From NCBI GenBank assembly GCA_023974075.1, contig JAMFTG010000531.1:1-64000 (forward strand): DNA of 64,000 nt, written 5' to 3'. The notes beneath the pieces are model-generated. The model made no database searches. It was not told the origin of the DNA and saw only the letters and a program-made list of their open reading frames with translations. Below are positions 27,797 to 59,683 of the stretch, piece after piece. Positions within the stretch are counted from its first letter, which is position 1, and every line of letters starts with the position of its first letter. This DNA is from Chaenocephalus aceratus (Eukaryota > Chordata > Actinopteri > Perciformes > Channichthyidae). The position numbers and the translations under genes were made by a program.

Positions 27797-27809
27797 TAAC
27801 ACTCTAACA

Positions 27810-31746: not shown

Positions 31747-33401
31747 GGATGCCACGGAAGAGGTGCTCCAAAATGAGGCGGTTCCCTCCGAAGGCAGTTC
31801 TCCCTGACGCCAAAGGTATGCTGCATGAATCTGTTGAATGCACATGCGCTACTTCCGCTACTTCCACTACTGTCCAGCCAAAGATAGTTGGTAGCAAGCA
31901 TTTCAGGTTGGCTAGAAAGGGAGATTAGAGTGCCAAGTTGTGTACTGTTGCAGCTTTGATAAGGCACAAGCTTTCCTGTGTGTGCACATGGAAGGCTTCT
32001 GTACTGGACTCCATTCAGGAGGAAGGAAGGAAGCTGAATATTGAAAAACTGGGCAAAGGCGTTGACAGTCAGTGTCAGATGTTTGATTCAGCGAACATGG
32101 TAAACGACACTGATTCTCTGAAAAGACTTCTTCAATCGAATGAAGGATACCGATTTCTGAAGCCAATTCGTGGCACACCGGCTTTTTGGGCTGGTGCCCA
32201 AAAGGATTTGTTTGCAATGGTCAGGCAGATTGGGTTGCCCACTTTCTTCTGTTCCTTTTCAGCTGCTGACATGAGGTGGAAGAATGTATTGACCAGCATG
32301 ATGCTTCAAGGGGGTAGGTGTGACAATGTGGACGATTTGGACTGGAATGACAAATGTGGTCTTTTGCGTCGCAATCCTGTAACGGCTGCACGCATGTTTC
32401 AACACAGATGGGAAACCTTTTTTAAAGATGTCATACGATCACCAAGTCAGCCAATTGGGAAAGTGGTAGATTACTTCTATCGTGTTGAGTTTCAACAGAG
32501 AGGGAGTCCTCATATACATGCCATTTTCTGGATTGAAGACAGCCCACAAATTGATCGAGACACTGATGAGGAGGTGGTGCAGTTTGTAGACAAGTACATT
32601 TCTTGTGAACTTCCAGAAGATGATGAGCTACTTGAGGAAATGGTGTCAACTGTGCAAACGCATATTAAAATACATTGAAAATCGTGTAGAAAGAAAAACA
32701 CCGTGTGTCGTTTCAACTTCCCACGACCACCGAGTGAACGGTCCTTTGTTTCCAGAGTAGGGAAAACGGATAAGTCGTGTTCACAACAGGAAGGCGTCGG
32801 CAACCAAATGACGGAAGAACAGGCACGTAAGATCATGTCCACGGTCAAAGAGGCAGTCACTGATGAGACGGCTACTTTCAAAACAGTCTCAGAGCTGTTT
32901 GGAAGTCTGGGTATTAACCAGGAGCAGTTTGAATCTGCATTTTAATGCATTGGTAAGAAAACCCAGGTTGTACTGAAGCGCAAACCTACAGACGTATGGG
33001 TGAATCCATACAATAAACGTTTACTTAGCGCTTGGAATGCTAACATGGACATTCAGTTTGTAGCAAATGCATATGCCTGCATTGTGTACATTATTTCATA
33101 CATCGCAAAAGCTGAACGTGAAATGGGATTACTGCTCAGCAACGCTCAACGAGAAGCGACAAAGGAGGGAAACACGGATGCCAAAAAGTCCTTGCGAAAG
33201 TTAGGCAGCGTTTATCGTGATGTTTCCGCACAGGAGGCCGTTTACAGATTGACCCAGATGCATTTAAAACATAATTCCCGATCGGTTCACTACATTCCCA
33301 CAGGAGATAACGCAACGCGTATGAGTCTGCCCCTAAAGGAACTAAAACGTAGGGCAGATTCAAACACTCTCACAGACAACAACATGTGGTTCCGTGGATA
33401 G
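31747..33401 (+). pseudogene. Helentron Rep (HUH) domain, frameshifted
   Basis: Main frames are 31,938-32,678, 32,703-32,945 and 33,000-33,401. The first holds the Helitron N-terminal domain: GTPAFWAGAQKDLFAM, FSAADMRWKNV, NPVTAARMFQHRWETFF and the HUH motif SPHIHAIFW. The third holds the Tyr-rich segment [15 protein letters not shown], where the nucleophilic tyrosines are expected. Single-base losses or stops at 32,678 and 32,945 break it. Rep nicks and rejoins single-stranded DNA in rolling-circle transposition. MPRKRCSKMRR at 31,747 could be a separate first exon. Confidence 0.8.
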
Positions 33402-35420
33402 GTATTTGGCTAGACCAAATGAAGACATATTTCATCGGATGTGTTTAGCTACATTTGTGTCGGAATACAGAGTTCTGTCGAAAAACCAGACTTCTGTTAA
33501 TAGAGTGAAACTAGGCAAGGACCTAGGATTCGTCCTGAAAAGGACTAAGGGAAAACCTGCAGTGGTGCGCTATGTGCAGTTTTCACATGACACGGATCCC
33601 GAGAAGTACTTCAGGAACATCTTGCAGCTTTTCCTGCCTTACCGTGTGACTGAAGACTTAAAACCTGAAGGGTTTCAGACTTTCGAACAGTTCTACCATA
33701 ACGGTCAATGGTTGCTAGACACTGTGGTTCACAGTGTTAAAACTACTGTTGATGTAAACAGGCGAACATTTGAGACAGAATCTGAAGTGATGGAACATTC
33801 TGACAATGTTTCAGGACACACAGGTGCTCTTGAAGATGCCTGGTGTGAAATGTGTCCAGGGCAACAGTTGGAACGCTTGGAATGTGAACAGGAAGTGGGG
33901 GAACGAGTGCCAGCTCCAGACGAACACACAGATACCATTCCAGACTTGGCCTACGCTGGTGCAGGGGGAAATCGTTTTGATGCACATGGAAACATTATGT
34001 GTAGATCGGATGCACTTAATCTTCTCAGACTCTGAATGTCAATCAGAGAGAGATATTTTATCAAGTTAGACAATGGTGCATTGAAAAGGTAAATGGCACG
34101 AACCCAAAACCCTTCAATGTGTTTGTTACAGGTGGTGCTGGGACTGGGAAATCGCACCTCATTAAAGCAATCCACTATGAAGCATCTCGGTCAAGTTGCA
34201 AGTTCACCTGATAAAGTGTCTGTGTTGTTAACTGCCCCTACTGGCATTGCTGCTTATAGTTTAGGAGCCAGCACAATACATAGCACATTTTCTATAGGGT
34301 TGGATGTCAAACCTCCCTACACGCCGTTAGGAGAGGAAAGGGTCACCTTACGTGCTGAATTGAGCGATCTGCAGATCCTGGTGATTGATGACATTTCAAT
34401 GGTGAATCATAACTTGCTAGCCTATGTTCACGGTAGACTTAGGCAGATTAGTGATCACTCACCATTTGGAAAAGTCAGCGTCATAGCTGTCGGCGACTTT
34501 TTCCAACTCAAGCCAGTTCAAGGCAAATCCTTGTATTTGGAGAACATGCTATGTGATTTCTGGACTGAAAAATTCTCCATTGCTCATTTAAACACCATTG
34601 TACGTCAACAGGACACTGTCTTTGCAGAACTGTTGAACAGGTTGCGTACACGAGCTAAGACCACGGCGCTCGTTGCCAGTGACATAGCTATCTTGAAAAA
34701 GTGTGAAAGCACTTCAGCGTTGCATATTTTTGCAACAAATGCACAAGTCAATGACCACAATATCAGACAGTTGTCAGCATCATGTCCAGAGAACCTTTGC
34801 GTGGAGGCACTGGATTATGAGAAGAATCAACAATCCGGCCGCATAGAATTGAAAAGAGGGCACTTCAGAAATGTGTACACATCCTATTTACCTGAAAGGT
34901 TACCGTTGGGAAAGGGTGCACGAGTGATGTTGATCAAACATATTGATGTGTCTGACGGCTTGGTAAACGGAGTCTGTGGGAATGTCGTAGACATTGTCAA
35001 CAATATCCACAACACATTTGTGAGCACTGTGTTTGTGAAATTCGATGACGAAAAAGTGGGTACTAACAGAAGGAAGCGTTTCCCTTCAACTAGTGGCAAC
35101 CCTTTGGCTACTCAGACAGAGATGACGAAAGGATACGCAAGGGAAAATTGCGTTAACAGTTTCCTTTGAAACTAGCATGGGCTTGCACAATCCACAAGGT
35201 GCAAGGGTTAACTGTTGACAAAGCAGTCGTTTCGCTTAAAATAATCTTTGAGTCAGGCCAGGCATATGTTGCTTTAAGCCGCGTCAAAAGCTTAAATGGG
35301 TTGACAATTCAGGACTTTAAAGACAGCGCCATATATTGCAAAGAGAATATTCAGGATTCCCTTGATGGCATGCCGCCATTTGTATCCTGTGCTACTACAC
35401 CCTCACAGGGAACACACTCA
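33394..35420 (+). pseudogene. Helentron Pif1-like helicase domain
   Basis: The 33,394-34,035 frame is the Rep-helicase linker (VRYVQFSHDTDPEKYF and LFLPYR). The P-loop GGAGTGKSH at 34,131-34,157 is in a different frame from the rest. The following 34,093-35,169 frame holds LTAPTGIAAY, Walker B LVIDDISMV and VGDFFQLKPV. Motifs [12 protein letters not shown] and [11 protein letters not shown] are at 35,175-35,300 in the next frame. Order and spacing fit a 5'-3' SF1B helicase of the Pif1/Helitron group. At least three frame breaks make it non-functional. It unwinds the transposon strand during rolling-circle transfer. Confidence 0.85.
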
Positions 35421-36089
35421 TTCTCCATATTCTCAATGAATGTACAAAGTTTAGACAGACATTTACCTGATCTAACGGCGCAAATTCAGCCATTTGATTA
35501 CAGTTGTGTGGCTGTAACGGAAACATGGTTAACTGAAACTGTTGCAAATCACACTGCAGGGATTGAGAAATATACGTTTCACAGTGTGCCACGTTGCAAG
35601 GCATACAACTCAACTGACGCTGTTTTGAAAACAATTAAAGACCAACAACAAGTCGGAGTTGGCATATATTGTCAAGACCAGTTAGAGTACACCATTTTGG
35701 ATCTTCCAAATGTCAATTTAGAATGTATTGCCTCGCATTTCACCAGGGAGAATGTGATTGTTGTGGTTCTTTACCGCCCACAAACATATCCATTGCCTCT
35801 GTTCAAACTAAACATGAAGCTGTTGACCAGTTTCTTAAATACTAGGTCAGACAACGTAGTCATTTTGGGAGACTTCAACCATGATCAGCTCAAGTCATTG
35901 TCCATGTCATCCTTCATGGAACAACTAGGTTACTTGCAGTTGGTATCCGAACCCACAACAGAAAAGGGAACATTGATCGATCATGTATATGGGAAACACA
36001 CAAGTAAGTATCTCACAGAAACGAAGGTTATCCCGATGTATTTCAGTACTCAAGAGGCAGTTCAATGTTTATTAACAAAGAACACCTGA
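35421..36089 (+). pseudogene. Helentron C-terminal AP endonuclease domain
   Basis: It continues in frame from the last helicase motifs (frame 35,166-36,089). It shows [44 protein letters not shown] and GTLIDHVYG in the usual order of a non-LTR-type endonuclease. Helentrons are distinguished from plant Helitrons by this added domain. The closing SDH motif is missing: the frame ends about 20 residues after GTLIDHVY, so the 3' end is truncated or rearranged. Confidence 0.8.
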
Positions 36090-46472: not shown

Positions 46473-46608
46473 AACCATAGTAGTAGTACAAATGTTCCTT
46501 TCCTCAAAAAAGTGACAGGTGGTGTGACAGGTCATACCTCTCCCTACTTATGCAAATGAGCTAAGTCCTTTGATGTCAGATTGGCGTGAAAGACCCCCCG
46601 GAGTGATT

Positions 46609-47280
46609 CTTTTATTGCAGCAATTAAGATAGTTATAGGTATTTGACCCCTGACCCCAGAGTGGATTAATTGCCCCAATTAGACTAGCCCCAGGCACCCC
46701 CTTTGTGTACAGGCCTTTTATTGTAGCAATTAAGATAGTTATAGGTGTTTGACCCCTGACCCAAGAGTGGAGTAATTGCCCCAATTAGACTAGCCCCTGG
46801 CACCCCCTTTGTGTATAGGCCTTTTATTGTAGCAATTAAGATAGTTATAGGTATTTGACCCCTGACCCAAGAGTGGAGTAATTGCCCCGCAATTATATTA
46901 GCCCCAGGCACCCCCTTTGTGTACAGGCTTTTTATTGTATCAATTAAGATAGCTAAGGTATTCGACCCCTGACCCTGAGAGTGGAGTAATTGCCCCGCAA
47001 TTATATTACCTCCAGGCACCCCCCTTTTGTGTACAGGCCATTTATTGCATCAATTAAGATAGCTAAGGTATTCGACCCCTGACCCTGAGAGTGGAGTAAT
47101 TGCCCCTCAATTATATTACCCCCAGGCACCCCCCCTTTTGTGTACAGGTCATTTATTGCATCAATTAAGATAGCTAAGGTATTTGACCCCTGACCCTGAG
47201 AGTGGAGTAATTGCCAGCAATTATATTAGCCCCAGACACCCCCTCTGTTGTATAGGTTTTTTTGATGTATTGAATAGATA
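46609..47280. repeat. Subterminal tandem repeat, about 6 units of 105-111 bp (left)
   Basis: Units carry TTTATTGTAGCAATTAAGAT, GACCCCTGACCC, AGAGTGGAGTAATTGCCCC and CAGGCACCCCCTTTGTGTA. Inner units have AGCTAAGG and CGCAATTATATTA variants, so the array has two subtypes. Located about 130 bp from the tip. Confidence 0.9.
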
Positions 47281-47453
47281 GTCTCTTTGACCCCTCCCCC
47301 TCAGAGCCCTTTGTTGTCTAATCTAATTAGCTTTTGATGCCTGCCCTTGATGTGCAATTTCACACTGATGAAAGCATCTGTATAAATGACTGGGATAAGA
47401 CCATATAGAGATATACTCAAAATAAATTTAAAAAAAGACAGACAATTCAACTT

Positions 47454-47659
47454 ACCGAGTCAACCGTCTGAAGCGCCAGTCAAGAAGCGAATGCGGGCAT
47501 AGGGGTGGGTGGGTTTAGAGTACAGCCTCTTTCTGGTCACGTGTGTTGGAGGAGGGGCTCTGTAAGGAAGGTTGAAGGAACGAGCAGGATTTCTCCCCCG
47601 GTTTGACTGCAAAAGACTCTGACTTTTCTCCAAGGGGATCCGCTTGAGTGTCAGTAAGT
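47454..47659 (+). promoter_or_regulatory. Possible leader exon with GTAAGT donor
   Basis: A GC-rich stretch with GGTGGGTGGG, a CACGTG E-box (47,538) and GGAGGAGGGGCTC leads to GTGTCAGTAAGT at 47,650-47,659, a strong 5' splice site. Three downstream acceptors share CTTCATTATCTACTTTTTTCAG-like sequence (48,624, 49,085 and 52,198). 47,454-47,496 also resembles codons of the 66-residue gene at 49,350 (GCGCCAGTCAAGAAGCGAAT). A common leader spliced to several bodies is an inference. The mirror copy lies at about 58,555-58,780. Confidence 0.35.
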
Positions 47660-48118
47660 TTCCTTAAGGTGTCATAAAGAGTGAGCTTTTGATTATCTAT
47701 TCATGCGACGTTCACTGTTAGAATATAATGTAATACATGCCATAAAAAAGCCCGTACGAAGAGCCTGAATGTTTTACTTTTCCCATTGCCCCAATTCACT
47801 CCATAAGGCCGTGTACTATTAGATTTTTTGTTGTACCCATAAAGAATCTGGTTTCTGCCCCAATTCACTCCATACGGCTCCAGGCCGATCTGAACAAACG
47901 TGTTCATGGCAGACACACTACGGGGGGGCGAGAAAAGACACATAGATAGCTACATTGGTAAGGAATCATTGATAGCTTTCAGTCGAGATGGTTTCTCCAA
48001 AATGACAGGTTTTGCATACATAAAAAGTGTATCTTACAGTTCCTTTAGTTGTAGGATTGTGAACTAATGTATAATTACTTTTATTAACTATAGGTTTGCA
48101 TCCATTACAGTGTATCTT

Positions 48119-48420
48119 ACAGTTCCTTTGTGAGTGAATTACACACAAATCTGCAGAGTGTCACTAATATATATATATATATATTCTTTATTTAACCAGG
48201 TAAAAAAACTCATTGAGATTAAAATATCTTTTCCAAGAGTGACCTGGCCAAGAAGGGACAGCATGCACAAAGTTACAACATATAAAACACAGACATGAAA
48301 GGCAGACAAATACAGCTGTAAAACACAAATAAAATGGCACATTAGCCAGTCAATATGCGAAGTAAAACAAACTATTACAATCATTCAAAAACTGGCAACA
48401 TTTAAAACGATATACGAGCA
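48119..48420. repeat. Old interspersed repeat inside the left arm
   Basis: TTCTTTATTTAACCAGGTAA followed by CTCATTGAGATTAAAATATC and AAGAGTGACCTGGCCAAGA is a dispersed sequence I know from many fish genomes (LINE-like 3' part). A mirror copy lies at about 57,814-58,115, so it was acquired before the arm was duplicated. A (TA)n run precedes it. Confidence 0.55.
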
Positions 48421-48639
48421 CTCACATCGACCAAAACTAAAAAAGTTGTACGCAGTGACTGACATTCTGTATGGGAGTTCACACCCGAGCTGCTGTGGGG
48501 AGCTGAGTATATTATGGCTCTCGGGGGATGGTGGGTTAAGAGACAGATGCTTAGTTTTTGGACTGCCTCAGGGGGTTAACGACATCTACTAAAAACAAAG
48601 TACTTCATTATCTACTTTTTTCAGCTTTTATACACAAAA

Positions 48640-48852
48640 GTGCAGGAAAATTCAGAGGATGAAGAAGCAGAAAACAGCCATTATTCTTCACTCTTCTGTA
48701 AAACGGACAGTTTCAAGAAAGATGACACCGTGTTTATGCATGACATGCAAAATATATTGAAGCCCTATTTAAAAAAACAAGTTACAAGTATATTGTGTGA
48801 AAATATCTTTACACATAATCTGCCGAATGTCTGTAAAAAAGTCTTTAAATAA
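48640..48852 (+). CDS. Small acidic/Lys-rich protein exon, unrecognised (left)
   Basis: About 70 codons: QENSEDEEAENSHYSSLFCK, then FMHDMQNILKPYLKKQ and ENIFTHNLPNVCKK. The first codon available is GTG, and the frame is open upstream to a CTTTTTTCAG acceptor at 48,624 (LLYTKVQENS), so this is more likely a 3' exon than a complete gene. The mirror copy differs only near the stop (a 1-base change in an A/T run alters the last three residues). No known domain; the N-terminus is acidic and the middle amphipathic. Confidence 0.45.
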   Translation: MQENSEDEEAENSHYSSLFCKTDSFKKDDTVFMHDMQNILKPYLKKQVTSILCENIFTHNLPNVCKKVFK

Positions 48853-48879
48853 AAAAACTTGCCTTTTTAGAGTCAGAAT

Positions 48880-49100
48880 CCTAACGAAATCTCATCAAAC
48901 AGAGTACTTTATGTTAGTGGTCCTCTTGTATACACAAAAGTGTATCTTTTCAGTAACTTTACCAGAGAATTTAAGCATAAATCTGGCAAATGTTCAAAAC
49001 AGCCTTGTTTTTCACTGAAATAGCCTCAAAATCACAAACAGCCATTAAGAGTCAGGGGGTTAACTTCATTATCTACTTTTTTCAGCTTTTATACACAAAA
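48880..49100. repeat. Intergenic module shared with 52,140-52,400
   Basis: GAATTTAAGCATAAATCTG, CAAATGTTCAAAACAGCCTT and GCCATTAAGAGTCAG occur in both places of the left arm (and mirrored on the right), in different order around the acceptor. This points to segmental duplication within the element before the arms were copied. Confidence 0.7.
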
Positions 49101-49212
49101 GTGCAGGGAAGGTAGGCAGATTTAGAACACTGGGATAATACCCATAAAGAATGTGTGTTTCTGCTCCATTTCACTCCATGAAGCCTCCAGCTTGTACAGG
49201 GGCTCCGCCTCC

Positions 49213-49262
49213 ACTCAACATAACATGTCCCGCCCTCCTCACCAGAACATTTAAAAGTAAGG
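49213..49262 (+). promoter_or_regulatory. Shared promoter module 1 (left)
   Basis: CTCAACATAACATGTCCCGCCC, then CTCACCAG and the TATA-like CATTTAAAAG, followed by GTAAGGGG. About 90 bp upstream of the ATG at 49,350. It is one of four related modules on this arm. Confidence 0.65.
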
Positions 49263-49349
49263 GGATGGAAATAGACGAAAATAAATACGCTCAAACTAGA
49301 TAACAGGCCAGTCATTTCCAATCACTAAGGCACTTTTCAAAAAAGAAAA

Positions 49350-49550
49350 ATGGCAAAGAGAAGCATAGATATGGGTTTAATCAGCGAGACGCCTGTGACA
49401 ACGTACAGCCATCAGTCCGGAGCGCCAATCAAGAAACGAATGCAATATATGTGCCGGGTTCAGACGCCTCCAGCCGAAGAACTTCATGAAGAATGGAATC
49501 TAAAAAATGGAGATGTTTGGGGTTATGTATTCAACTATATGGCGAATTAA
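49350..49550 (+). CDS. 66-residue basic protein, unrecognised (left)
   Basis: ATG at 49,350 lies about 90 bp downstream of promoter module 1. The protein starts MAKRSIDMGLISETPVTTYS, has a basic patch GAPIKKRMQYMCRVQ (residues 25-39) that could serve as a nuclear signal, and ends EEWNLKNGDVWGYVFNYMAN. It is intact and identical in both arms, unlike most neighbours. The C-terminal NLKNGDVWG resembles NLRNGETYG at the start of the next gene, hinting that the two genes share an origin. No family is recognised. Two identical copies in a palindrome may reflect youth rather than selection. Confidence 0.6.
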   Translation: MAKRSIDMGLISETPVTTYSHQSGAPIKKRMQYMCRVQTPPAEELHEEWNLKNGDVWGYVFNYMAN

Positions 49551-49572
49551 CTGCATTTCTACAATCTGAAGA

Positions 49573-50056
49573 ATGGAGAAACGTACGGACCCCCGCAGTG
49601 TTAAAGCGACACTGACCTCAACAGATTGTGTTAACTCTGGTGTCTTCCAGAGATCTCCACGCAACCACGGTACCGAAAGAAGTAGTGCATCAAGAAACCA
49701 TAGTGGAACCAGCGGTGTACAAGATATTTGCAAAGAAAAGCAAAGAAACACAGACAGCATGCGAGATCAAAGAAGAGATTTCATCGCCGCCCCTCAATGT
49801 GGAGGAAGAAAGAGTTATTTCCCCGCTGCCAGAAGTGAGAAGAGTCCTGACAAGCACCGTCTGGGAAACTAAAAGCGGACCATCGGAGCGATGGTATTAC
49901 CGTGCAAGCCATTTGGAGACGCTGGGGAAGGACCCCTCTGATGATTTTGTTTTGGAGACTTTTAATTCTACATGTGGAGTATTTCAGACAGCAGTGCGGG
50001 TATCATTGACTGCTTGGCTGAAAATGATTGATGGAAAAGCTACAAAGCTTAAATAA
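49573..50056 (+). CDS. Acidic protein of about 140-165 residues, unrecognised (left)
   Basis: The main frame (49,628-50,056) has KEVVHQETIVEPAVYKIFAK, EIKEEISSPPLNVEEERVIS, TSTVWETKSGPSERWYYRAS and ends SLTAWLKMIDGKATKLK. Only a GTG begins it here. The ATG at 49,573 is in another frame because this arm has one C more (GACCCCCGC) and five bases fewer (AGATTGTG against AGATTGGGCTGTG) than the right arm. So the N-terminus is disrupted in at least one arm. The first third is Glu/Val-rich and probably disordered. The last 60 residues look folded (Trp/Tyr-rich). No known domain. Confidence 0.5.
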
Positions 50057-50135
50057 CTTTTTAAACAGAGTCAGACATCGATGGACATTATACTGGTGAA
50101 AAAGAATCTCACCTTTACAGAGGACTCTGCCTCCC

Positions 50136-50185
50136 ACTCAACATAACAAGTCACACCCTCCTCACCAGAGCATTTTAAACTAAGG
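50136..50185 (+). promoter_or_regulatory. Shared promoter module 2 (left)
   Basis: CTCAACATAACAAGTCACACCC, CTCACCAG and the TATA-like GCATTTTAAAC, then TAAGGACC. It lies 45 bp upstream of the 42-codon frame at 50,230. Confidence 0.6.
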
Positions 50186-50229
50186 ACCCCTCAAGAAAGA
50201 CATTGTGTATTCTACCTATGTAAAAAAGA

Positions 50230-50358
50230 ATGTCGGGGTTGTCTCTGTATCAAGAAGATGTGTTTAAAAATGAATTTTGTGAAAAATACCAACTGTGTGA
50301 GAGACGTCATAAAGACAGTCATTTTAACCACAGTGTTTGTACTCTACAAATGTTTTAA
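50230..50358 (+). CDS. 42-residue protein, unrecognised (left)
   Basis: ATG at 50,230 follows promoter module 2 and precedes an A-rich AAATAAAAATAAAA signal at about 50,379. The peptide begins MSGLSLYQEDVFKNEFCEKY and contains three Cys and three His, spaced like a loose metal-binding or disulfide-linked miniprotein (C17, C23 and C37; H27, H31 and H34). It is unchanged in the mirror copy (55,871-55,999). Called as a gene only because promoter, ATG and poly(A) signal are all correctly placed. Confidence 0.4.
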   Translation: MSGLSLYQEDVFKNEFCEKYQLCERRHKDSHFNHSVCTLQMF

Positions 50359-50914
50359 GATTGTTACAAAATGTAAAAAATAAAAATAAAAGGTATGGAG
50401 ACTAAATTAATTCAGGTGACTCTGGCTTTATTAGGAAAACAAACATATAATACAAAGGGGTTAGGGGTTAAATGTAACCATCGTGGACTTAATAGTCTAA
50501 CAAAATACTTTTATCTGAATACATTTGTTCTTTTTAAGCGCACTTTTTGAAATTATTTATTTATTATTTTCAGTGGAACAATCCAGTTTTTGTTAACATT
50601 AACGCTTTCTTCTCTTTTTCTTGTGTTACTAAGATACTTTTAGACATACTTTGGCGTATGCAACACTTGTTCAGATAAACAAGGTTTTTTCTTTTCTGAT
50701 AAACTTACATTTTTAGTTATTTTATGTTACCAAGATACTTTGAGATACACCCTGATGGTACGCAACTATACTTTTCTGACTTTTTTCTGTAGAATCGTGA
50801 CAAAACTATTACTTGTTCTTAAATGATGACCTATTGCTGGAGATGAGATGAAAAAGCTACAACGCTTAAAGAACTTTTTTCTAAAAACTCTCAATTCTAT
50901 AATTGACTACCCCC
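50359..50914. other. Non-coding spacer of the left arm
   Basis: Contains diverged short repeats (TTGTGTTACTAAGATACTTT, then TTATGTTACCAAGATACTTT; ACTTGTTCA; TTTTCTGA) and no open frame. CTACAACGCTTAAAGAAC at 50,857 resembles CTACAAAGCTTAAATAAC, the 3' end of the preceding gene at 50,040, so gene ends have been duplicated too. Confidence 0.6.
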
Positions 50915-50965
50915 ATTCAACGCAATAAGCCCTACCCTCCACTCAGCAAATCATCTAAAACGAAG
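50915..50965 (+). promoter_or_regulatory. Shared promoter module 3 (left)
   Basis: TTCAACGCAATAAGCCCTACCC, CACTCAGCAAATCAT and the TATA-like CTAAAACGAAGGAC. The leader GACGACCGTTGTAAACTAGC leads directly to ATGGA. The leader is almost the same as in module 4. Confidence 0.7.
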
Positions 50966-50997
50966 GACCTCGCTAAGACGACCGTTGTAAACTAGCC

Positions 50998-51493
50998 ATG
51001 GAGCAGAGAAAAGCCAAGACTCCCCCGCGAGTTGCAGCCAGGAACAGAGTCCACCAGCAACACCACCATGGGGGAAACCCGAATCTTGCAATACTACAGC
51101 TGCTGATTTTGCTCCTTGGGCCAAAACGTCTCTGTTTATGGACACAGTGAAAGCGGTGTTGGTTGATATTGTGGAGAGGGTGATACATCGGTACAGAGAA
51201 GAAATATGCAACGGGTGCCGAGTCAGTCACCCCGGCCAGAGGCAACACGATTTCTGAATGACATGTCCGATTTTTACTTCAGAAACAATTACAACGCGTT
51301 AATGAAAAGACTCTGGCTCACCGACTTCATTACTGAGATCGACCAGACTCTTAATGATAAAGACATTTTCACGGATGATTGGAGGATCCAAGGCGCTTCG
51401 GAGGCTTTTCTTCACAATCTCAAAAATTGCAGAGGCCTCAAGGAGAGACTTGAAAAGATCCATGCCGAGTTGGATGGAGAAGAAGAAGACTAA
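50998..51493 (+). pseudogene. Cys/His-motif protein, frameshifted (left)
   Basis: ATG at 50,998 sits in ACTAGCCATGGA after module 3. Relative to the right arm this copy has one C fewer in CTCCCCC (near 51,030) and one T fewer in GATTTC (near 51,252), so the frame is lost twice; the downstream frame is open at 51,206-51,493 (to a DGEEED end). Recognisable features in both arms are a helix LFMDTVKAVLVDIVERVIHR and the motif EICNGCRVSHPGQRQH. I know CxxC...HP.Q..H motifs from uncharacterised proteins of Polinton/adintovirus-type elements; that is recollection, not proof. Function unknown. Confidence 0.55.
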
Positions 51494-51564
51494 CAACCAG
51501 CAGTTGGATGGAGAAGCCAGGGACTTGTTCGATACAGTGACTTTTTTCTTTAAGTAAAATAAAA

Positions 51565-52029
51565 ATGGGAAACTACTATGCAAAACGCTCTGTATATATT
51601 GATCATAATGTAGTCATTACCCGTGTAATAAGTGTGATGATGGGGACGATTGAAAACAGAACGAGTAGTGACCCCTGTGTAAAAAGAATGGCTGAAGTTT
51701 GTAAACTAGAAGACATTTTGGATATAGTTCGTTCTGGCAGTACTATTCCGGGTCATTGGGAAACGATTGTAAACGAAACATTTAAAGTGGTCCTGGAATC
51801 TTCATTTTCCGAAACATTCTGTAACATTATCTCAGAAATGAAACAAACATCAAAAGTGTATCATGTGCTCTCATTGTATGCTCTGTTTGTAGATGTAATG
51901 CATCTGTGTGTTGAAAACAGCATACACGTGAATATTTTGACTGAAGTGAAAAAACTCCATCACGATATCTCCAGTAATATGGGGAATTCTAAGCTGGAGA
52001 CTGTCCTGGGGATGCTACAATCAGTATAA
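51565..52029 (+). CDS. Possible Bcl-2-like protein, 154 residues (left)
   Basis: ATG at 51,565. The protein is all-helical in character. Residues 85-118 (FCNIISEM, then VLSLYALFVDVMHLCVEN) recall the BH1-helix-5 region of Bcl-2 proteins, where a helix with Val-Val-x-Glu is followed by a hydrophobic hairpin helix ending in LCVES. The NWGR core of BH1 is not present, so the resemblance is weak. Known adintoviruses carry Bcl-2-like genes, which makes the idea plausible. MGNYYA could be a myristoylation site. No C-terminal membrane anchor is present. The right arm copy lost the first part to a 238-bp deletion, so this is the only complete copy. Alternative: an unrelated helical protein. Confidence 0.4.
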   Translation: MGNYYAKRSVYIDHNVVITRVISVMMGTIENRTSSDPCVKRMAEVCKLEDILDIVRSGSTIPGHWETIVNETFKVVLESSFSETFCNIISEMKQTSKVYHVLSLYALFVDVMHLCVENSIHVNILTEVKKLHHDISSNMGNSKLETVLGMLQSV

Positions 52030-52379
52030 CTATTGATTTTGTGTGTGAAAAAAATTAAAAAAGTGTACATCTACATCTAAAAAACCGTTGTCATCATTAT
52101 AGCAAGGGGAGCGTGTCTGATACATGTGTTTTTCAGTGTTTTTCAGTGTTTTCTGTGTGTCTGTACACACAAAGCACACTTCATTATCTACTTTTCAGCT
52201 TTTTAAAAAGAAAAGTGTATCTTTCGGTAACTTTCTCAGAGAATTTAAGCATAAATCTGTCAAATGTTCAAAACAGCCTTGTTTCACTGAAATACCCTCA
52301 AAATGACAAACTGCCATTAAGAGTCAGATTCTTAACCAAATCTACTGAAACAGAGTACTTTCTACAGATGAAGCCTCCC

Positions 52380-52430
52380 ACTCAACGCAATATGTCCCAC
52401 CCCACTCAGCAAATCATATAAAACTAAGGA
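52380..52430 (+). promoter_or_regulatory. Shared promoter module 4 (left)
   Basis: CTCAACGCAATATGTCCCACCC, ACTCAGCAAATCAT and a proper TATA box ATATAAAAC, then GGACGACCGTTAAAAACTAGC and ATGGA at 52,450. TATA to ATG is about 35 bp, so the transcript leader would be very short. Confidence 0.75.
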
Positions 52431-52449
52431 CGACCGTTAAAAACTAGCC

Positions 52450-53217
52450 ATGGATCTGAGAAAAACCAAGTCTGATGTAGCCTGCCCTTATTATCACCAG
52501 GATAATGGATACGGGCTTAATGACTGGATGTTACAAAGTAGGGGAGAGGATGTTCCCGAAGAAGAGCTCTCGTCTATATCATATCCATGTAAGGTCTTTA
52601 GGACAAAAGAGGACCATGATAACATGACATATGAAGAATATCTTTCTTTAAAAGATGGTATTATAGATAACCTTTATAGAAACAGTATATCTCATACCAC
52701 TCGCCAAGATCGCAAACGACAATTAGCAGAAAAGACAAAAAGAAGGAAGGTGAAAAGAAAAAGAAACAAAGTGAAGAAATTTAAACTAGAGGATGGTGTT
52801 GTAGAGCCATTACCGGATCATAATAATCTTATAGATCATCTCCCGCTAACCGACTGCTGCGAATGTGTTGAACAAATACCAAAAGCAATGGCAGAAATTT
52901 GCTTCAGTATAATGAGAGAAAAAGCGCGATACTGTGGAATTGCCCAAATTGGCGACAGTGCCAGAATATGTATTAAAAGACTGTTGGAGGATCTCTATTC
53001 TAGTGTCGGTTGTCATTACAGCGAAGGATACGCCAAAACGTGTGACGATATAGACAAAGCTTTTGAAGACAATTATATGGTACCTGTCCTTACAGCTAAA
53101 CAAATCCTACGCCAGGTATTCAACAGACCACAAGAAGTCCCAGAAAGGATTACATTCAGAGCTAATAATGGAGAAAACCGAAGAAGAAGCAAAGCAGATT
53201 ATAATCGTTGCGGGTGA
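52450..53217 (+). CDS. 255-residue basic protein, unrecognised; crosses the arm boundary
   Basis: ATG at 52,450 in ACTAGCCATGGA behind promoter module 4. Residues 1-75 are acidic and Tyr-rich (DVACPYYHQDNGYGLNDWML, YEEYLSLKDG). Residues 86-112 are a strong basic run (TKRRKVKRKRNKVKK), very likely a nuclear signal. Residues 134-141 hold DCCECVE. The C-terminal 100 residues look folded (IMREKARYCGIAQIGDSARI, YAKTCDDIDKAFEDNY, TAKQILRQVFN). The inverted repeat ends after residue 147, so only this copy is complete. It is the largest intact gene of the element, probably a nuclear regulator by composition. No homologue recognised. Confidence 0.6.
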   Translation: MDLRKTKSDVACPYYHQDNGYGLNDWMLQSRGEDVPEEELSSISYPCKVFRTKEDHDNMTYEEYLSLKDGIIDNLYRNSISHTTRQDRKRQLAEKTKRRKVKRKRNKVKKFKLEDGVVEPLPDHNNLIDHLPLTDCCECVEQIPKAMAEICFSIMREKARYCGIAQIGDSARICIKRLLEDLYSSVGCHYSEGYAKTCDDIDKAFEDNYMVPVLTAKQILRQVFNRPQEVPERITFRANNGENRRRSKADYNRCG

Positions 53218-53577
53218 AAGGATAGAGAATTTGCATGTGATGTTAATGCATTTATCTGATATAAAAAATGCTTTCGTATACTTCCAAGAGACCCCTAAAC
53301 ATCTACTTGGGCTGTGTGAATTGAACGACAAACCGATCACTGTAAATGAAACGCGGAGAGAAGTAGCAGTGCAAATCGTTAAGTCTATTACCTTGTATGC
53401 ACTACGACATTAACTTGGTCAAATGTAATATGTTTTCTATGAAAATGTGTTGAATGTTGTGTTTTTTCAATTAAACAACCATTACAAAATGAAAATGTGT
53501 TTTATTTTTTTGCTTTCATATATAGTAATAGTATTGTAAACTAAACATTTATAGTGTATCATATGCTCTGTTTTTTA
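52891..53577. other. Unpaired centre of the palindrome
   Basis: 687 bp present once. It holds the 3' part of the 255-residue gene, the overlapping 81-residue gene and a spacer with AATTAAACAACC. No complementarity of more than about 3 bp is seen between the end of the centre (TTTTTTA) and the bases following the left arm (GCAGAA), so no long priming site for fold-back is visible. 53,553-53,574 resembles two pieces of 51,855-51,888 joined (AGTGTATCAT and ATGCTCTGTTT). Confidence 0.8.
53168..53413 (+). CDS. 81-residue protein, unrecognised, overlaps upstream gene
   Basis: ATG at 53,168 lies 50 bp inside the end of the 255-residue gene in another frame. The protein begins MEKTEEEAKQIIIVAGERIE and continues HVMLMHLSDIKNAFVYFQET, ending IVKSITLYALRH. 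It is helical and highly charged, without a known domain. An in-frame upstream ATG at 53,063 would add 35 residues that overlap the other gene fully, so I chose the later start. ATTAAA at 53,471 may be its poly(A) signal. Present only once, because it lies in the unpaired centre. Confidence 0.5.
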   Translation: MEKTEEEAKQIIIVAGERIENLHVMLMHLSDIKNAFVYFQETPKHLLGLCELNDKPITVNETRREVAVQIVKSITLYALRH

Positions 53578-54018
53578 CATTGCTTTTGGTATTTGTTCAA
53601 CACATTCGCAGCAGTCGGTTAGCGGGAGATGATCTATAAGATTATTATGATCCGGTAATGGCTCTACAACACCATCCTCTAGTTTAAATTTCTTCACTTT
53701 GTTTCTTTTTCTTTTCACCTTCCTTCTTTTTGTCTTTTCTGCTAATTGTCGTTTGCGATCTTGGCGAGTGGTATGAGATATACTGTTTCTATAAAGGTTA
53801 TCTATAATACCATCTTTTAAAGAAAGATATTCTTCATATGTCATGTTATCATGGTCCTCTTTTGTCCTAAAGACCTTACATGGATATGATATAGACGAGA
53901 GCTCTTCTTCGGGAACATCCTCTCCCCTACTTTGTAACATCCAGTCATTAAGCCCGTATCCATTATCCTGGTGATAATAAGGGCAGGCTACATCAGACTT
54001 GGTTTTTCTCAGATCCAT
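53578..54018 (-). pseudogene. Truncated mirror copy of the 255-residue gene
   Basis: Starts at 54,018 with the same ATGGATC context and is identical for the 147 residues available, through the basic run. At 53,578 the arm ends and the frame runs into unrelated AT-rich sequence and a stop. The promoter module is intact, so a C-terminally truncated protein with its nuclear signal could still be made. Confidence 0.75.
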
Positions 54019-54037
54019 GGCTAGTTTTTAACGGTCG

Positions 54038-54088
54038 TCCTTAGTTTTATATGATATGCTGAGTGGGGTGGGACATATTGCGTTGAGT
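54038..54088 (-). promoter_or_regulatory. Shared promoter module 4 (right)
   Basis: Mirror of 52,380-52,430 with one base change in the TATA region (CATATCATATAAAAC). Confidence 0.75.
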
Positions 54089-54437
54089 GGGAGGCTTCAT
54101 ATGTAGAAAGTACTCTGTTTCAGTAGATTTGGTTAAGAATCTGACTCTTAATGGCAGTTTGTCATTTTGAGGGTATTTCAGTGAAACAAGGCTGTTTTGA
54201 ACATTTGACAGATTTATGCTTAAATTCTCTGAGAAAGTTACCGAAAGATACACTTTTCTTTTTAAAAGCTGAAAAGTAGATAATGAAGTGTGCTTTGTGT
54301 GTACAGACACACAGAAAACACTGAAAAACACTGAAAAACACATGTATCAGACACGCTCCCCTTGCTATAATGATGACAACGGTTTTTTAGATGTAGATGT
54401 ACACTTTTTTAATTTTTTTCACACACAAAATCAATAG

Positions 54438-54875
54438 TTATACTGATTGTAGCATCCCCAGGACAGTCTCCAGCTTAGAATTCCCCATATTACTGGAGAT
54501 ATTGTGATGGAGTTTTTTCACTTCAGTCAAAATATTCACGTGTATGCTGTTTTCAACACACAGATGCATTACATCTACAAACAGAGCATACAATGAGAGC
54601 ACATGATACACTTTTGATGTTTGTTTCATTTCTGAGATAATGTTACAGAATGTTTCGGAAAATGAAGATTCCAGGACCACTTTAAATGTTTCGTTTACAA
54701 TCGTTTCCCAATGACCCGGAATAGTACTGCCAGAACGAACTATATCCAAAATGTCTTCTAGTTTACAAACTTCAGCCATTCTTTTTACACAGGGGTCACT
54801 ACTCGTTCTGTTTTCAATCGTCCCCATCATCACACTTATTACACGGGTAATCATCCGTGAAAATGTCTTTATCAT
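54438..54875 (-). pseudogene. Mirror copy of the Bcl-2-like gene, 5' end deleted
   Basis: Residues from VITRVISVMM to the end (LGMLQSV) match the left copy with one Asp-to-Asn change. The first 17 codons and the upstream 180 bp are lost in the 238-bp deletion. The start of this frame (MIKTFSRMI) comes from the preceding gene read in another frame. The helical core that resembles Bcl-2 is retained, but it has no promoter of its own. Confidence 0.6.
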
Positions 54876-54892
54876 TAAGAGTCTGGTCGATC

Positions 54893-55231
54893 TCAGTAAT
54901 GAAGTCGGTGAGCCAGTCTTTTCATTAACGCGTTGTAATTGTTTCTGAAGTAAAAATCGGACATGTCATTCAGAAAATCGTGTTGCCTCTGGCCGGGGTG
55001 ACTGACTCGGCACCCGTTGCATATTTCTTCTCTGTACCGATGTATCACCCTCTCCACAATATCAACCAACACCGCTTTCACTGTGTCCATAAACAGAGAC
55101 GTTTTGGCCCAAGGAGCAAAATCAGCAGCTGTAGTATTGCAAGATTCGGGTTTCCCCCATGGTGGTGTTGCTGGTGGACTCTGTTCCTGGCTGCAACTCG
55201 CGGGGGGAGTCTTGGCTTTTCTCTGCTCCAT
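54893..55231 (-). CDS. Cys/His-motif protein, open but 3'-altered (right)
   Basis: ATG at 55,231 behind promoter module 3. Here the frame is open from the start: a Pro/Ser/Gln-rich N-terminus (residues 1-40), the helix LFMDTVKAVLVDIVERVIHR (46-65), then C71, C74, H78 and H84 in EICNGCRVSHPGQRQH, and FYFRNNYNALMKRL. A 2-bp loss (ACTGGCTC against ACTCTGGCTC on the left) shifts the end after residue 105 and stops at HRLHY. So each arm carries different lesions and neither copy is whole. The pattern of four Cys/His suggests a small zinc site. Confidence 0.55.
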   Translation of the reverse strand: MEQRKAKTPPASCSQEQSPPATPPWGKPESCNTTAADFAPWAKTSLFMDTVKAVLVDIVERVIHRYREEICNGCRVSHPGQRQHDFLNDMSDFYFRNNYNALMKRLAHRLHY

Positions 55232-55263
55232 GGCTAGTTTACAACGGTCGTCTTAGCGAGGTC

Positions 55264-55314
55264 CTTCGTTTTAGATGATTTGCTGAGTGGAGGGTAGGGC
55301 TTATTGCGTTGAAT
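55264..55314 (-). promoter_or_regulatory. Shared promoter module 3 (right)
   Basis: Mirror of 50,915-50,965, same TATA-like and leader sequence. Confidence 0.7.
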
Positions 55315-55870
55315 GGGGGTAGTCAATTATAGAATTGAGAGTTTTTAGAAAAAAGTTCTTTAAGCGTTGTAGCTTTTTCATCTCATCTCCAGCAATAGGT
55401 CATCATTTAAGAACAAGTAATAGTTTTGTCACGATTCTACAGAAAAAAGTCAGAAAAGTATAGTTGCGTACCATCAGGGTGTATCTCAAAGTATCTTGGT
55501 AACATAAAATAACTAAAAATGTAAGTTTATCAGAAAAGAAAAAACCTTGTTTATCTGAACAAGTGTTGCATACGCCAAAGTATGTCTAAAAGTATCTTAG
55601 TAACACAAGAAAAAGAGAAGAAAGCGTTAATGTTAACAAAAACTGGATTGTTCCACTGAAAATAATAAATAAATAATTTCAAAAAGTGCGCTTAAAAAGA
55701 ACAAATGTATTCAGATAAAAGTATTTTGTTAGACTATTAAGTCCACGATGGTTACATTTAACCCCTAACCCCTTTGTATTATATGTTTGTTTTCCTAATA
55801 AAGCCAGAGTCACCTGAATTAATTTAGTCTCCATACCTTTTATTTTTATTTTTTACATTTTGTAACAATC

Positions 55871-55999
55871 TTAAAACATTTGTAGAGTACAAACACTGTG
55901 GTTAAAATGACTGTCTTTATGACGTCTCTCACACAGTTGGTATTTTTCACAAAATTCATTTTTAAACACATCTTCTTGATACAGAGACAACCCCGACAT
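55871..55999 (-). CDS. 42-residue protein, unrecognised (right)
   Basis: Exact mirror of 50,230-50,358, including ATG, stop and the downstream AATAAA-like run. Begins MSGLSLYQEDVF. Confidence 0.4.
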   Translation of the reverse strand: MSGLSLYQEDVFKNEFCEKYQLCERRHKDSHFNHSVCTLQMF

Positions 56000-56043
56000 T
56001 CTTTTTTACATAGGTAGAATACACAATGTCTTTCTTGAGGGGT

Positions 56044-56093
56044 CCTTAGTTTAAAATGCTCTGGTGAGGAGGGTGTGACTTGTTATGTTGAGT
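56044..56093 (-). promoter_or_regulatory. Shared promoter module 2 (right)
   Basis: Mirror of 50,136-50,185. Confidence 0.6.
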
Positions 56094-56172
56094 GGAAGGC
56101 AGAGTCCTCTGTAAAGGTGAGATTCTTTTTCACCAGTATAATGTCCATCGATGTCTGACTCTGTTTAAAAAG

Positions 56173-56682
56173 TTATTTAAGCTTTGTAGCTTTTCCATCA
56201 ATCATTTTCAGCCAAGCAGTCAATGATACCCGCACTGCTGTCTGAAATACTCCACATGTAGAATTAAAAGTCTCCAAAACAAAATCATCAGAGGGGTCCT
56301 TCCCCAGCGTCTCCAAATGGCTTGCACGGTAATACCATCGCTCCGATGGTCCGCTTTTAGTTTCCCAGACGGTGCTTGTCAGGACTCTTCTCACTTCTGG
56401 CAGCGGGGAAATAACTCTTTCTTCCTCCACATTGAGGGGCGGCGATGAAATCTCTTCTTTGATCTCGCATGCTGTCTGTGTTTCTTTGCTTTTCTTTGCA
56501 AATATCTTGTACACCGCTGGTTCCACTATGGTTTCTTGATGCACTACTTCTTTCGGTACCGTGGTTGCGTGGAGATCTCTGGAAGACACCAGAGTTAACA
56601 CAGCCCAATCTGTTGAGGTCAGTGTCGCTTTAACACTGCGGGGTCCGTACGTTTCTCCATTCCTCAGATTGTAGAAATGCAA
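56173..56682 (-). CDS. Acidic protein of about 165 residues, unrecognised (right)
   Basis: In this arm the frame is continuous from HFYNLRNGETYGPRSVKATL through TSTDWAVLTLVSSRDLHATT to the same end (GKATKLK) as the left copy. There is no ATG at its beginning: the first codon is TTG, directly after the stop of the 66-residue gene. This suggests that it is a downstream exon or that translation starts further in. The N-terminal half is acidic (EIKEEISS, EEERVIS). The C-terminal half has WYYRASHLETLGKD. This arm seems closer to the original gene than the left arm. Confidence 0.5.
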   Translation of the reverse strand: MHFYNLRNGETYGPRSVKATLTSTDWAVLTLVSSRDLHATTVPKEVVHQETIVEPAVYKIFAKKSKETQTACEIKEEISSPPLNVEEERVISPLPEVRRVLTSTVWETKSGPSERWYYRASHLETLGKDPSDDFVLETFNSTCGVFQTAVRVSLTAWLKMIDGKATKLK

Positions 56683-56883
56683 TTAATTCGCCATATAGTT
56701 GAATACATAACCCCAAACATCTCCATTTTTTAGATTCCATTCTTCATGAAGTTCTTCGGCTGGAGGCGTCTGAACCCGGCACATATATTGCATTCGTTTC
56801 TTGATTGGCGCTCCGGACTGATGGCTGTACGTTGTCACAGGCGTCTCGCTGATTAAACCCATATCTATGCTTCTCTTTGCCAT
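56683..56883 (-). CDS. 66-residue basic protein, unrecognised (right)
   Basis: Identical to the left copy (MAKRSIDMGL to GYVFNYMAN), with ATG at 56,883 behind promoter module 1. Basic patch APIKKRM. Confidence 0.6.
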   Translation of the reverse strand: MAKRSIDMGLISETPVTTYSHQSGAPIKKRMQYMCRVQTPPAEELHEEWNLKNGDVWGYVFNYMAN

Positions 56884-56970
56884 TTTTCTTTTTTGAAAAG
56901 TGCTTTAGTGATTGGAAATGACTGGCCTGTTATCTAGTTTGAGCGTATTTATTTTCGTCTATTTCCATCC

Positions 56971-57020
56971 CCTTACTTTTAAATGTTCTGGTGAGGAGGG
57001 TGGGACATGTTATGTTGAGT
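56971..57020 (-). promoter_or_regulatory. Shared promoter module 1 (right)
   Basis: Mirror of 49,213-49,262. Confidence 0.65.
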
Positions 57021-57384
57021 GGAGGCGGAGCCCCTGTACAAGCTGGAGGCTTCATAGAGTGAAATGGAGCAGAAACACACATTCTTTATGGGTATTATCC
57101 CAGTGTTCTAAATCTGCCTACCTTCCCTGCACTTTTGTGTATAAAAGCTGAAAAAAGTAGATAATGAAGTTAACCCCCTGACTCTTAATGGCTGTTTGTG
57201 ATTTTGAGGCTATTTCAGTGAAAAACAAGGCTGTTTTGAACATTTGCCAGATTTATGCTTAAATTCTCTGGTAAAGTTACTGAAAAGATACACTTTTGTG
57301 TATAAAAGAGGACCACTAACATAAAGTACTCTGTTTGATGAGATTTCGTTAGGATTCTGACTCTAAAAAGGCAAGTTTTTTTAT

Positions 57385-57594
57385 TTAAAGACTTTTTTTA
57401 CAGACATTCGGCAGATTATGTGTAAAGATATTTTCACACAATATACTTGTAACTTGTTTTTTTAAATAGGGCTTCAATATATTTTGCATGTCATGCATAA
57501 ACACGGTGTCATCTTTCTTGAAACTGTCCGTTTTACAGAAGAGTGAAGAATAATGGCTGTTTTCTGCTTCTTCATCCTCTGAATTTTCCTGCAC
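57385..57594 (-). CDS. Small acidic/Lys-rich protein exon, unrecognised (right)
   Basis: Mirror of 48,640-48,852 for 66 residues; ends CKKSL rather than CKKVFK because of a one-base difference in an A/T run. As on the left, it is open upstream to a CTTTTTTCAG acceptor and lacks an ATG start. Confidence 0.45.
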   Translation of the reverse strand: MQENSEDEEAENSHYSSLFCKTDSFKKDDTVFMHDMQNILKPYLKKQVTSILCENIFTHNLPNVCKKSL

Positions 57595-57813
57595 TTTTGT
57601 GTATAAAAGCTGAAAAAAGTAGATAATGAAGTACTTTGTTTTTAGTAGATGTCGTTAACCCCCTGAGGCAGTCCAAAAACTAAGCATCTGTCTCTTAACC
57701 CACCATCCCCCGAGAGCCATAATATACTCAGCTCCCCACAGCAGCTCGGGTGTGAACTCCCATACAGAATGTCAGTCACTGCGTACAACTTTTTTAGTTT
57801 TGGTCGATGTGAG

Positions 57814-58115
57814 TGCTCGTATATCGTTTTAAATGTTGCCAGTTTTTGAATGATTGTAATAGTTTGTTTTACTTCGCATATTGACTGGCTAATGTGCCAT
57901 TTTATTTGTGTTTTACAGCTGTATTTGTCTGCCTTTCATGTCTGTGTTTTATATGTTGTAACTTTGTGCATGCTGTCCCTTCTTGGCCAGGTCACTCTTG
58001 GAAAAGATATTTTAATCTCAATGAGTTTTTTTACCTGGTTAAATAAAGAATATATATATATATATATTAGTGACACTCTGCAGATTTGTGTGTAATTCAC
58101 TCACAAAGGAACTGT
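57814..58115. repeat. Old interspersed repeat inside the right arm
   Basis: Mirror of 48,119-48,420 (CTTGGCCAGGTCACTCTTGG, TTTTTTACCTGGTTAAATAA). Same position in both arms, hence older than the palindrome. Confidence 0.55.
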
Positions 58116-58929
58116 AAGATACACTGTAATGGATGCAAACCTATAGTTAATAAAAGTAATTATACATTAGTTCACAATCCTACAACTAAAGGAACTGTAA
58201 GATACACTTTTTATGTATGCAAAACCTGTCATTTTGGAGAAACCATCTCGAGTGAAAGCTATCAATGATTCCTTACCAATGTAGCTATATATGTGTCTTT
58301 TCTCGCCCCCCCGTAGTGTGTCTGCCATGAACACTTTTGTTCAGATCGGCCTGGAGCCGTATGGAGTGAATTGGGGCAGAAACCAGATTCTTTATGGGTA
58401 CAACAAAAAATCTAATAGTACACGGCCTTATGGAGTGAATTGGGGCAATGGGAAAAGTAAAACATTCAGGCTCTTCGTACGGGCTTTTTTATGGCATGTA
58501 TTACATTATATTCTAACAGTGAACGTCGCATGAATAGATAATCAAAAGCTCACTCTTTATGACACCTTAAGGAAACTTACTGACACTCAAGCGGATCCCC
58601 TTGGAGAAAAGTCAGAGTCTTTTGCAGTCAAACCGGGGGAGAAATCCTGCTCGTTCCTTCAACCTTCCTTACAGAGCCCCTCCTCCAACACACGTGACCA
58701 GAAAGAGGCTGTACTCTAAACCCACCCACCCCTATGCCCGCATTCGCTTCTTGACTGGCGCTTCAGACGGTTGACTCGGTAAGTTGAATTGTCTGTCTTT
58801 TTTTAAATTTATTTTGAGTATATCTCTATATGGTCTTACCCCAGTCATTTATACAGATGCTTTCATCAGTGTGAAATTGCACATCAAGGGCAGGCATCAA
58901 AAGCTAATTAGATTAGACAACAAAGGGCT

Positions 58930-59550
58930 AATATAATTGCTGGCAATTACTCCACTCTCAGGGTCAGGGGTCAAATACCTTAGCTATCTTAATTGATGTA
59001 ATAAATGGCCTGTACACAAAAAGGGGGTGCCTGGGGGTAATATAATTGAGGGGCAATTACTCCACTCTCAGGGTCAGGGGTCGAATACCTTAGCTATCTT
59101 AATTGATGCAATAAATGGCCTGTACACAAAAGGGGGGTGCCTGGGGGTAATATAATTGCGGGGCAATTACTCCACTCTCAGGGTCAGGGGTCGAATACCT
59201 TAGCTATCTTAATTGATACAATAAAAAGCCTGTACACAAAGGGGGTGCCTGGGGCTAATATAATTGCGGGGCAATTACTCCACTCTTGGGTCAGGGGTCA
59301 AATACCTATAACTATCTTAATTGCTACAATAAAAGGCCTATACACAAAGGGGGTGCCAGGGGCTAGTCTAATTGGGGCAATTACTCCACTCTTGGGTCAG
59401 GGGTCAAACACCTATAACTATCTTAATTGCTACAATAAAAGGCCTGTACACAAAGGGGGTGCCTGGGGCTAGTCTAATTGGGGCAATTACTCCACTCTGG
59501 GGTCAGGGGTCAAATACCTATAACTATCTTAATTGCTGCAATAAAAGAAT
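58930..59550. repeat. Subterminal tandem repeat (right)
   Basis: Mirror array of about six 105-111-bp units. The innermost unit is joined directly to TTTGTTGTCTAATC because the 75 bp seen on the left are missing. Confidence 0.9.
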
Positions 59551-59683
59551 CACTCCGGGGGGTCTTTCACGCCAATCTGACATCAAAGGACTTAGCTCAT
59601 TTGCATAAGTAGGGAGAGGTATGACCTGTCACACCACCTGTCACTTTTTTGAGGAAAGGAACATTTGTACTACTACTAACCAT

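Follow-up and report, generated by a model that had tools for sequence, protein, structure and literature searches.

Linear killer plasmids of yeasts give rise to palindromic or hairpin derivatives of protein-primed linear DNA, which are kept by a helper plasmid. Polintons, or Mavericks, are described as replicating by protein priming from their terminal inverted repeats (TIRs) and as integrating by means of an integrase (PMC6431247, PMC8097293), and for those of vertebrates the available text of PMC8097293 gives TIRs of 46-1447 bp and total lengths of 12.7-24.6 kb. Here we describe a palindromic element with Polinton ends in the fish Chaenocephalus aceratus. It occupies positions 46479-59677 (13,199 bp) of the window, by which we mean the whole stretch of 64,000 nucleotides analysed (positions 1 to 64,000 of contig JAMFTG010000531.1, below C531); the assembly searched, GCA_023974075.1, comprises 1.06 Gb. 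We put a probability of about 0.8 on the element being one copy of an amplified, non-autonomous, palindromic Polinton satellite that stems from a snap-back genome and is mobilised in trans.

Structure of the palindrome and its insertion site

The boundaries of the element are exact to the base. Its two arms lie in inverted orientation around a single-copy centre, the left end carrying the tip AGTAGTAGTAC and the right end the tip GTACTACTACT, and the same six bases stand directly outside both (C and E numbers in the text denote contigs and individual elements, respectively):

46473-46478, + strand: left target-site duplication AACCAT, directly outside the left tip
46479-52890, + strand: left arm, beginning with the tip AGTAGTAGTAC
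46609-47256, + strand: tandem array of ~106-110-bp units in the left TIR zone
52891-53577, + strand: single-copy centre, 687 bp, holding the 3' part of gene g4 and then g5
53577-53596, + strand: fold-back junction, where the centre passes into the right arm; 14 distinct insertions have it, with no more than 2 bp of difference
53578-59677, - strand: right arm, the mirror of the left arm
58925-59547, - strand: mirror copy of the tandem array
59678-59683, + strand: right target-site duplication AACCAT, directly outside the right tip

Aligned over 6099 positions, the arms differ by 22 mismatches, three of them at the edge of the junction, in addition to indels, the largest of which (77 and 238 bp) are both absent from the right arm. 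The longest exact inverted stretch within the element is 893 bp, as compared with 12-16 bp in five shuffles of the same sequence and with 71 and 16 bp in the stretches of the window to either side of it. The arms, the 687-bp centre, the tips and the AACCAT duplication had all been reported in a first-pass annotation of the window, and each was confirmed with coordinates exact to the base.

The same insertion is present in inverted orientation on a second contig, C97, where it is also palindromic and has the complementary target site ATGGTT; identity to the flanks on C531 is 98.9% over 1505 aligned columns on one side and 98.2% over 1054 on the other. The C97 copy is either a haplotig or a duplicated segment. 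Since the palindrome was thus assembled twice, an assembly artefact is unlikely. It might still be argued that the palindromes came about separately, locus by locus, through local inverted duplication or mis-assembly, as such structures are difficult for assemblers and a single assembly supplied all loci considered here. However, the same insertion on two contigs, arms bearing private differences and, as described below, a junction common to unrelated loci and different target duplications outside both tips speak against it; artefact and local duplication were rejected on these grounds, and we hold an explanation of this kind to be very improbable.

A dispersed family with one fold-back junction

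The searches for further family members scored only the best matches, so that all totals are minimum values and intact copies are over-represented. A query consisting of the outermost kilobase of the left arm gave 43 matches (best 40 of 688 candidates scored), among them 12 inverted TIR pairs that represent 11 distinct insertions. Palindromes with arms of ~5-7 kb account for eight of these: the window insertion together with its C97 counterpart, E2 (on contig C9), E3 and E7 (C13), E4 (C14), E8 (C16), E9 (C4) and E10 (C15). The remaining three are E5 (C10), a 7.6-kb element whose arms are reduced to 2.2 kb and whose target-site duplication is intact, and the elements on C61 and C6, both of which carry PolB. 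The centre as query identified 40 near-complete places (best 40 of 277 candidates scored); all 10 loci sampled, chosen by eye from the 40, have inverted arms, nine turning at a common point and the one on C243 turning 115 bp further into the centre. Of 947 candidates found with the protein of the arm gene g3, the best 150 were scored as matches; every one is full length, and stops are absent from 149. They lie at 105 places and form 45 convergent pairs within 10 kb, with no tandem or other close pairs. Palindromes that have no large insertion measure 11.5-14.9 kb. The centre of E2 holds an insertion of ~4.6 kb with frames unrelated to core genes, and 19 bp of arm sequence stand on both sides of it.

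Perfect 6-bp duplications, mutually different, were found at 12 of 12 distinct sites (10 with non-autonomous and two with PolB-bearing elements), that of E2 fitting if the left tip is read as two AGT repeats, not three. As the target duplications stand outside both tips, the element was inserted as a palindrome. The fold-back junction, with a difference of at most 2 bp just before the turn, is carried by 14 of the 19 palindromic insertions examined (15 pieces when C97 is included). A junction common within 2 bp suggests that the mirror arose once and then spread, and a single fold-back inherited by the amplified family would be the simplest reading of these sequences. A one-off event was rejected in view of this junction, the 10 palindromic centre loci and the 45 inverted g3 pairs. 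The first-pass annotation, which had supposed that the window copy made its own mirror, has to be corrected here, because the junction is common to 13 other insertions and was therefore inherited; the other palindromic copies with different target duplications that it suggested counting do exist, and their 6-bp duplications differ at every site tested.

Stepwise growth of TIRs has been proposed for fold-back-like DNA transposons. Applied to the present family, the core of a Polinton would have been deleted and its TIRs would then have grown inward by unequal exchange or gene conversion, which would make the palindrome an extreme TIR and not a snap-back product. In agreement with such a history, arm length varies from ~1.2 kb in the C61 Polinton through 2.2 kb in E5 to 5-7 kb in the palindromes, the C243 arms extend 115 bp further into the centre, gene conversion between arms is indicated (see below), and the longest TIRs of Galileo, up to 1.26 kb, are reported in the available text of PMC3573991 for non-autonomous copies. 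Against it stands one junction, constant within 2 bp in 14 insertions, that runs through g4 and leaves this gene whole in one arm and truncated in the other. Moreover, E5 is the sole intermediate arm length among the pieces examined and, with its target-site duplication intact, may be the result of a later deletion. We consider stepwise growth unlikely, though clearly less so than a local artefact.

Relation to Polintons of the same genome

Polinton tips (AGT repeats at one end, ACT repeats at the other) were present in every complete palindrome tested. The 16.2-kb element on C61 shares these tips and the 6-bp duplications with the palindromes and has open frames for PolB (PF03175), ATPase (PF04665), integrase (PF00665) and protease (PF00770). 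With palindrome E9 it has 98.9-99.0% TIR identity, but with the window element only 90-93%. In the C6 element, whose full-length PolB contains one stop, the TIR is 97-98% identical over the matched parts to that of the window element. The ends of a palindrome on C7 are quite different, being 93-95% identical to the TIR of a Polinton on C10, and the C243 palindrome represents a third end type. One shared junction combined with different end types suggests that ends were exchanged between palindromes and helper lineages. Eight full-length stop-free PolB frames were counted among the best 51 of 297 candidates. The putative major capsid gene of the C61 element seems to be split into two frames by ~0.8 kb of other sequence (2212-2988 of the fetched piece), its label coming from the sequence pattern and not from a Pfam match. 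The accessory protein of this element has a relative in the icefish Champsocephalus esox, 90% identical over 44% of its length.

The C10 Polinton contains, inward from its integrase-side tip, the TIR, a homolog of the arm gene g1 (83% identical over 170 columns), an accessory gene 33% identical to g2, and the integrase; its TIR, g1 homolog and accessory gene follow each other in the order and orientation of the arm of the window element. This order, together with the core-gene relics described below, indicates that the arms descend from the integrase side of a Polinton after an internal deletion. In a rearranged Polinton at C5:35.43M (C5:35426000-35434900), g3 lies next to protease, ATPase and the end of PolB, and there are scattered arm pieces; this element may be a donor or a recombinant.

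The assignment to the Polinton superfamily in the first-pass annotation is thus sustained by the tips, the 6-bp duplications and the TIRs shared with PolB-bearing elements, and the idea that one Polinton end was mirrored by the integrase-side TIR and the g1 and g2 homologs of C10, alike in order and orientation. Full-length relatives with the arm genes, which it also envisaged, were found in part: tips and TIRs are shared and g1-g2 occur at C10, but none was found with all the arm genes.

Genes and gene relics of the arms

The arm of the window element reads TIR, g1, protease relic, g2, g3, g4, with the following features along the palindrome:

50206-50373, + strand: relic of the protease C-terminus, left arm (E 4e-18)
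51206-51493, + strand: 3' part of g2, left arm, its frame broken by single-base indels
51565-52029, + strand: g3, 154 codons
52450-53217, + strand: g4, 255 codons, running from the left arm into the centre; the sole full copy in the element
53168-53413, + strand: g5, 81 codons, overlapping the end of g4
53575-54018, - strand: mirror copy of g4, truncated at the fold-back
54438-54875, - strand: mirror copy of g3, with an altered N-terminus
54893-55231, - strand: g2, a homolog of a Polinton accessory gene, shortened by the 238-bp deletion in the right arm
55856-56023, - strand: relic of the protease C-terminus, right arm (E 4e-18)
56173-56682, - strand: g1, 169 codons, open; its homolog in the C10 Polinton is 83% identical

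A 5-bp deletion at 49627 disrupts the left-arm copy of g1. For g2, identity to the Polinton accessory gene is 34.5% in the open E1 copy. As the fold-back lies inside g4, each full copy of the element has one whole and one truncated g4.

A core-gene search found no intact core gene in the window element. PolB had no match there and was detected among the palindromic pieces as fragments only (residues 541-704 at most), in E5, E7, E9 and E10, which also retain a fragment of a putative capsid protein. A retroviral-type integrase was matched neither in the window element nor in the further palindrome pieces covered, and ATPase gave no match in the core-gene search of the palindromes, where the protease is represented by its C-terminal relic; this relic is also present in E1, E3, E4, E5, E7, E8, E9 and E10. 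The earlier description of the element as being without any core gene consequently holds for intact genes, but not for remnants, a protease C-terminus being kept in both arms.

Seven open reading frames of the window showed no convincing family in Pfam and PHROGs and no transposase or polymerase match, a PDB sequence search with g4 returned no family, and a scan of IMG/VR with g4 yielded three pattern stretches and no relatives. The 41 IMG/VR loci with a 16-base tip pattern were taken as chance occurrences; blastn with the left arm and centre gave matches of at most 37 bases among those listed. Predicted structures were poor, with predicted local distance difference test (pLDDT) scores of 43.5 for g3 and 58.2 for the accessory protein, and a Bcl-2-like fold suspected by eye for g3 found no support and was abandoned.

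The short genes are nevertheless largely open in many copies (149 of 150 g3 matches stop-free, best 150 of 947 candidates), and the ratio of nonsynonymous to synonymous polymorphism (pN/pS) amounts to 0.28 in g1 and to 0.04 over the first 106 codons of g2, values that come from hand-picked intact copies only and are suggestive at most. Both observations would suit a self-sufficient new transposon that is moved by its own g1-g5 and resembles Polintons only at its ends. Yet the TIRs are up to 99% identical to those of the C61 Polinton, g1 and g2 are homologous to Polinton accessory genes, relics of core genes persist, and no transposase or polymerase family was matched by the seven frames. Of all the explanations weighed here, self-sufficiency appears to us the least probable.

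Likeness of the two arms

In terms of substitutions over full arms, the two arms of an element diverge by 0.11-0.97%, as against 0.81-1.80% to the nearest other insertion, and this applied to nine of nine copies (eight insertions). When the four arms of the window insertion on C531 and C97 were compared, 42 of 6026 columns varied. In 17 of these the two copies differ while the arms of each copy agree, in 25 a single arm stands apart, and in none do the arms differ in the same way in both copies. The 17 copy-separating columns point to mutation followed by arm-to-arm conversion after the copies had parted.

Origin and mobilisation

A mirrored genome end and an unpaired turn loop, as in a snap-back molecule, are both present in the element, in the form of its arms and the 687-bp centre, and g1 and g2 identify the mirrored end as the integrase-side one. 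From this arrangement we infer a snap-back origin. Mobilisation in trans by helper Polintons is the probable mode of spread, because the TIRs match and intact core genes were not found in the window element. The earlier proposal of a defective Polinton end, mirrored and integrated in trans, therefore stands as an inference, except that the window copy did not itself make the mirror.

In the ancestor, a linear protein-primed genome, synthesis that began at the integrase-side end would have folded back onto its own strand within g4, with a loop of ~690 nt remaining and a hairpin that ends in a TIR as the product. A further round of replication would convert this hairpin into a linear palindrome with a TIR at both ends, that is, with two origins and two integrase substrates. 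Such a molecule could be copied by the PolB of a helper and inserted by the helper integrase, its own genes not being required for copying. Palindromes would later have swapped TIRs with helper lineages, and their arms would have been kept alike in part by gene conversion between them following insertion, and perhaps in addition by the use of one arm as template for the other during replication. The size of 11.5-14.9 kb, partly within the 12.7-24.6 kb of intact Mavericks, might also suit packaging, which is speculation.

Several observations weigh against this account. The common junction is lacking in five of the 19 palindromic insertions: in E2, E4, E7 and C13:30.8M it has been lost through deletion or rearrangement of the centres, and the turn of C243 (C243:162354-165431), lying 115 bp further on, could be a second fold-back. 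No element was found in which TIR-g1-g2-g3-g4-g5 are joined to core genes, and hence no complete parent; a search of the C61 element gave no significant match to g3-g5, and the retrieved ends of the C6, C10 and C4 elements gave none to g3 or g4. When 1.15-kb inner segments are compared, the two arms group as sisters in only five of 15 pairs, a result of the near-identity of recent copies and of varying repeat numbers; aligned over these segments, the arms of two elements are 16-23% different, which we attribute to the number of tandem repeats. Finally, given conversion after insertion, likeness of the arms is by itself no proof of replicative copying.

Going beyond the origin of the element, it is somewhat more probable than the contrary that the palindromes form a stable mirror-image satellite lineage, which integrates, is inherited vertically, keeps some genes under constraint, swaps ends with several helpers and evolves its two halves in concert. 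If so, a defective-interfering genome would have become fixed as a transposon family in a vertebrate, providing a dated and dispersed record of a snap-back genome that arose once and spread with helper enzymes, whereas such genomes are otherwise encountered as transient by-products. This would bear on Polinton replication, for which terminal protein priming and strand displacement predict molecules of this type, and may shed light on the defective Mavericks amplified in some vertebrates, which a passage of PMC8097293 calls perplexing. Many large palindromes in one genome would also make arm-to-arm gene conversion measurable.

Other sequences in the window

Elsewhere in the window there are a Helitron remnant (31938-36089, + strand) with Helitron_like_N, PIF1 helicase and a fused endonuclease in adjoining frames, a Harbinger-type transposase frame, DDE_Tnp_4 (8517-9251, - strand), an endonuclease frame of the long interspersed nuclear element (LINE) type (12441-13187, + strand), a YqaJ-like exonuclease domain (27804-28307, - strand) and two long minisatellites at 4153-5558 and 6512-8331 (~87 x 16 bp and 35 x 52 bp).

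Comparison with known systems

Full-text searches of the open literature listed no paper with a palindromic Polinton family in its title or abstract; subscription journals and preprints were outside this scope, which makes it weak evidence of novelty. The palindromic derivatives of yeast killer plasmids differ from the present element in being cytoplasmic and not integrated, and they do not transpose. With the Polintons/Mavericks of vertebrates, as described in the available text of PMC8097293, the element shares (AGT)n//(ACT)n tips, 6-bp duplications, inverted termini and accessory genes beside the terminal repeats; unlike them, it has a mirror of 5-7 kb per side and no intact core gene left, and the string 'palindrom' does not occur in the main text of that source. 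Galileo/Foldback of Drosophila likewise has non-autonomous copies that are made up for the most part of long inverted arms with internal tandem repeats, as well as chimeric copies, but belongs to the P superfamily, makes 7-bp duplications, has a longest TIR of 1.26 kb and employs no replicative polymerase, according to the available text of PMC3573991. The nearest mechanism seen in print is that of the snap-back genomes of adeno-associated virus (AAV; available text of PMC8235507), which are self-complementary half genomes with one end duplicated, depend on a helper for replication and act as satellite or interfering genomes. These arise by rolling-hairpin replication and exist as particles in a virus population, whereas the palindromes described here are an integrated, dispersed family with one shared junction.

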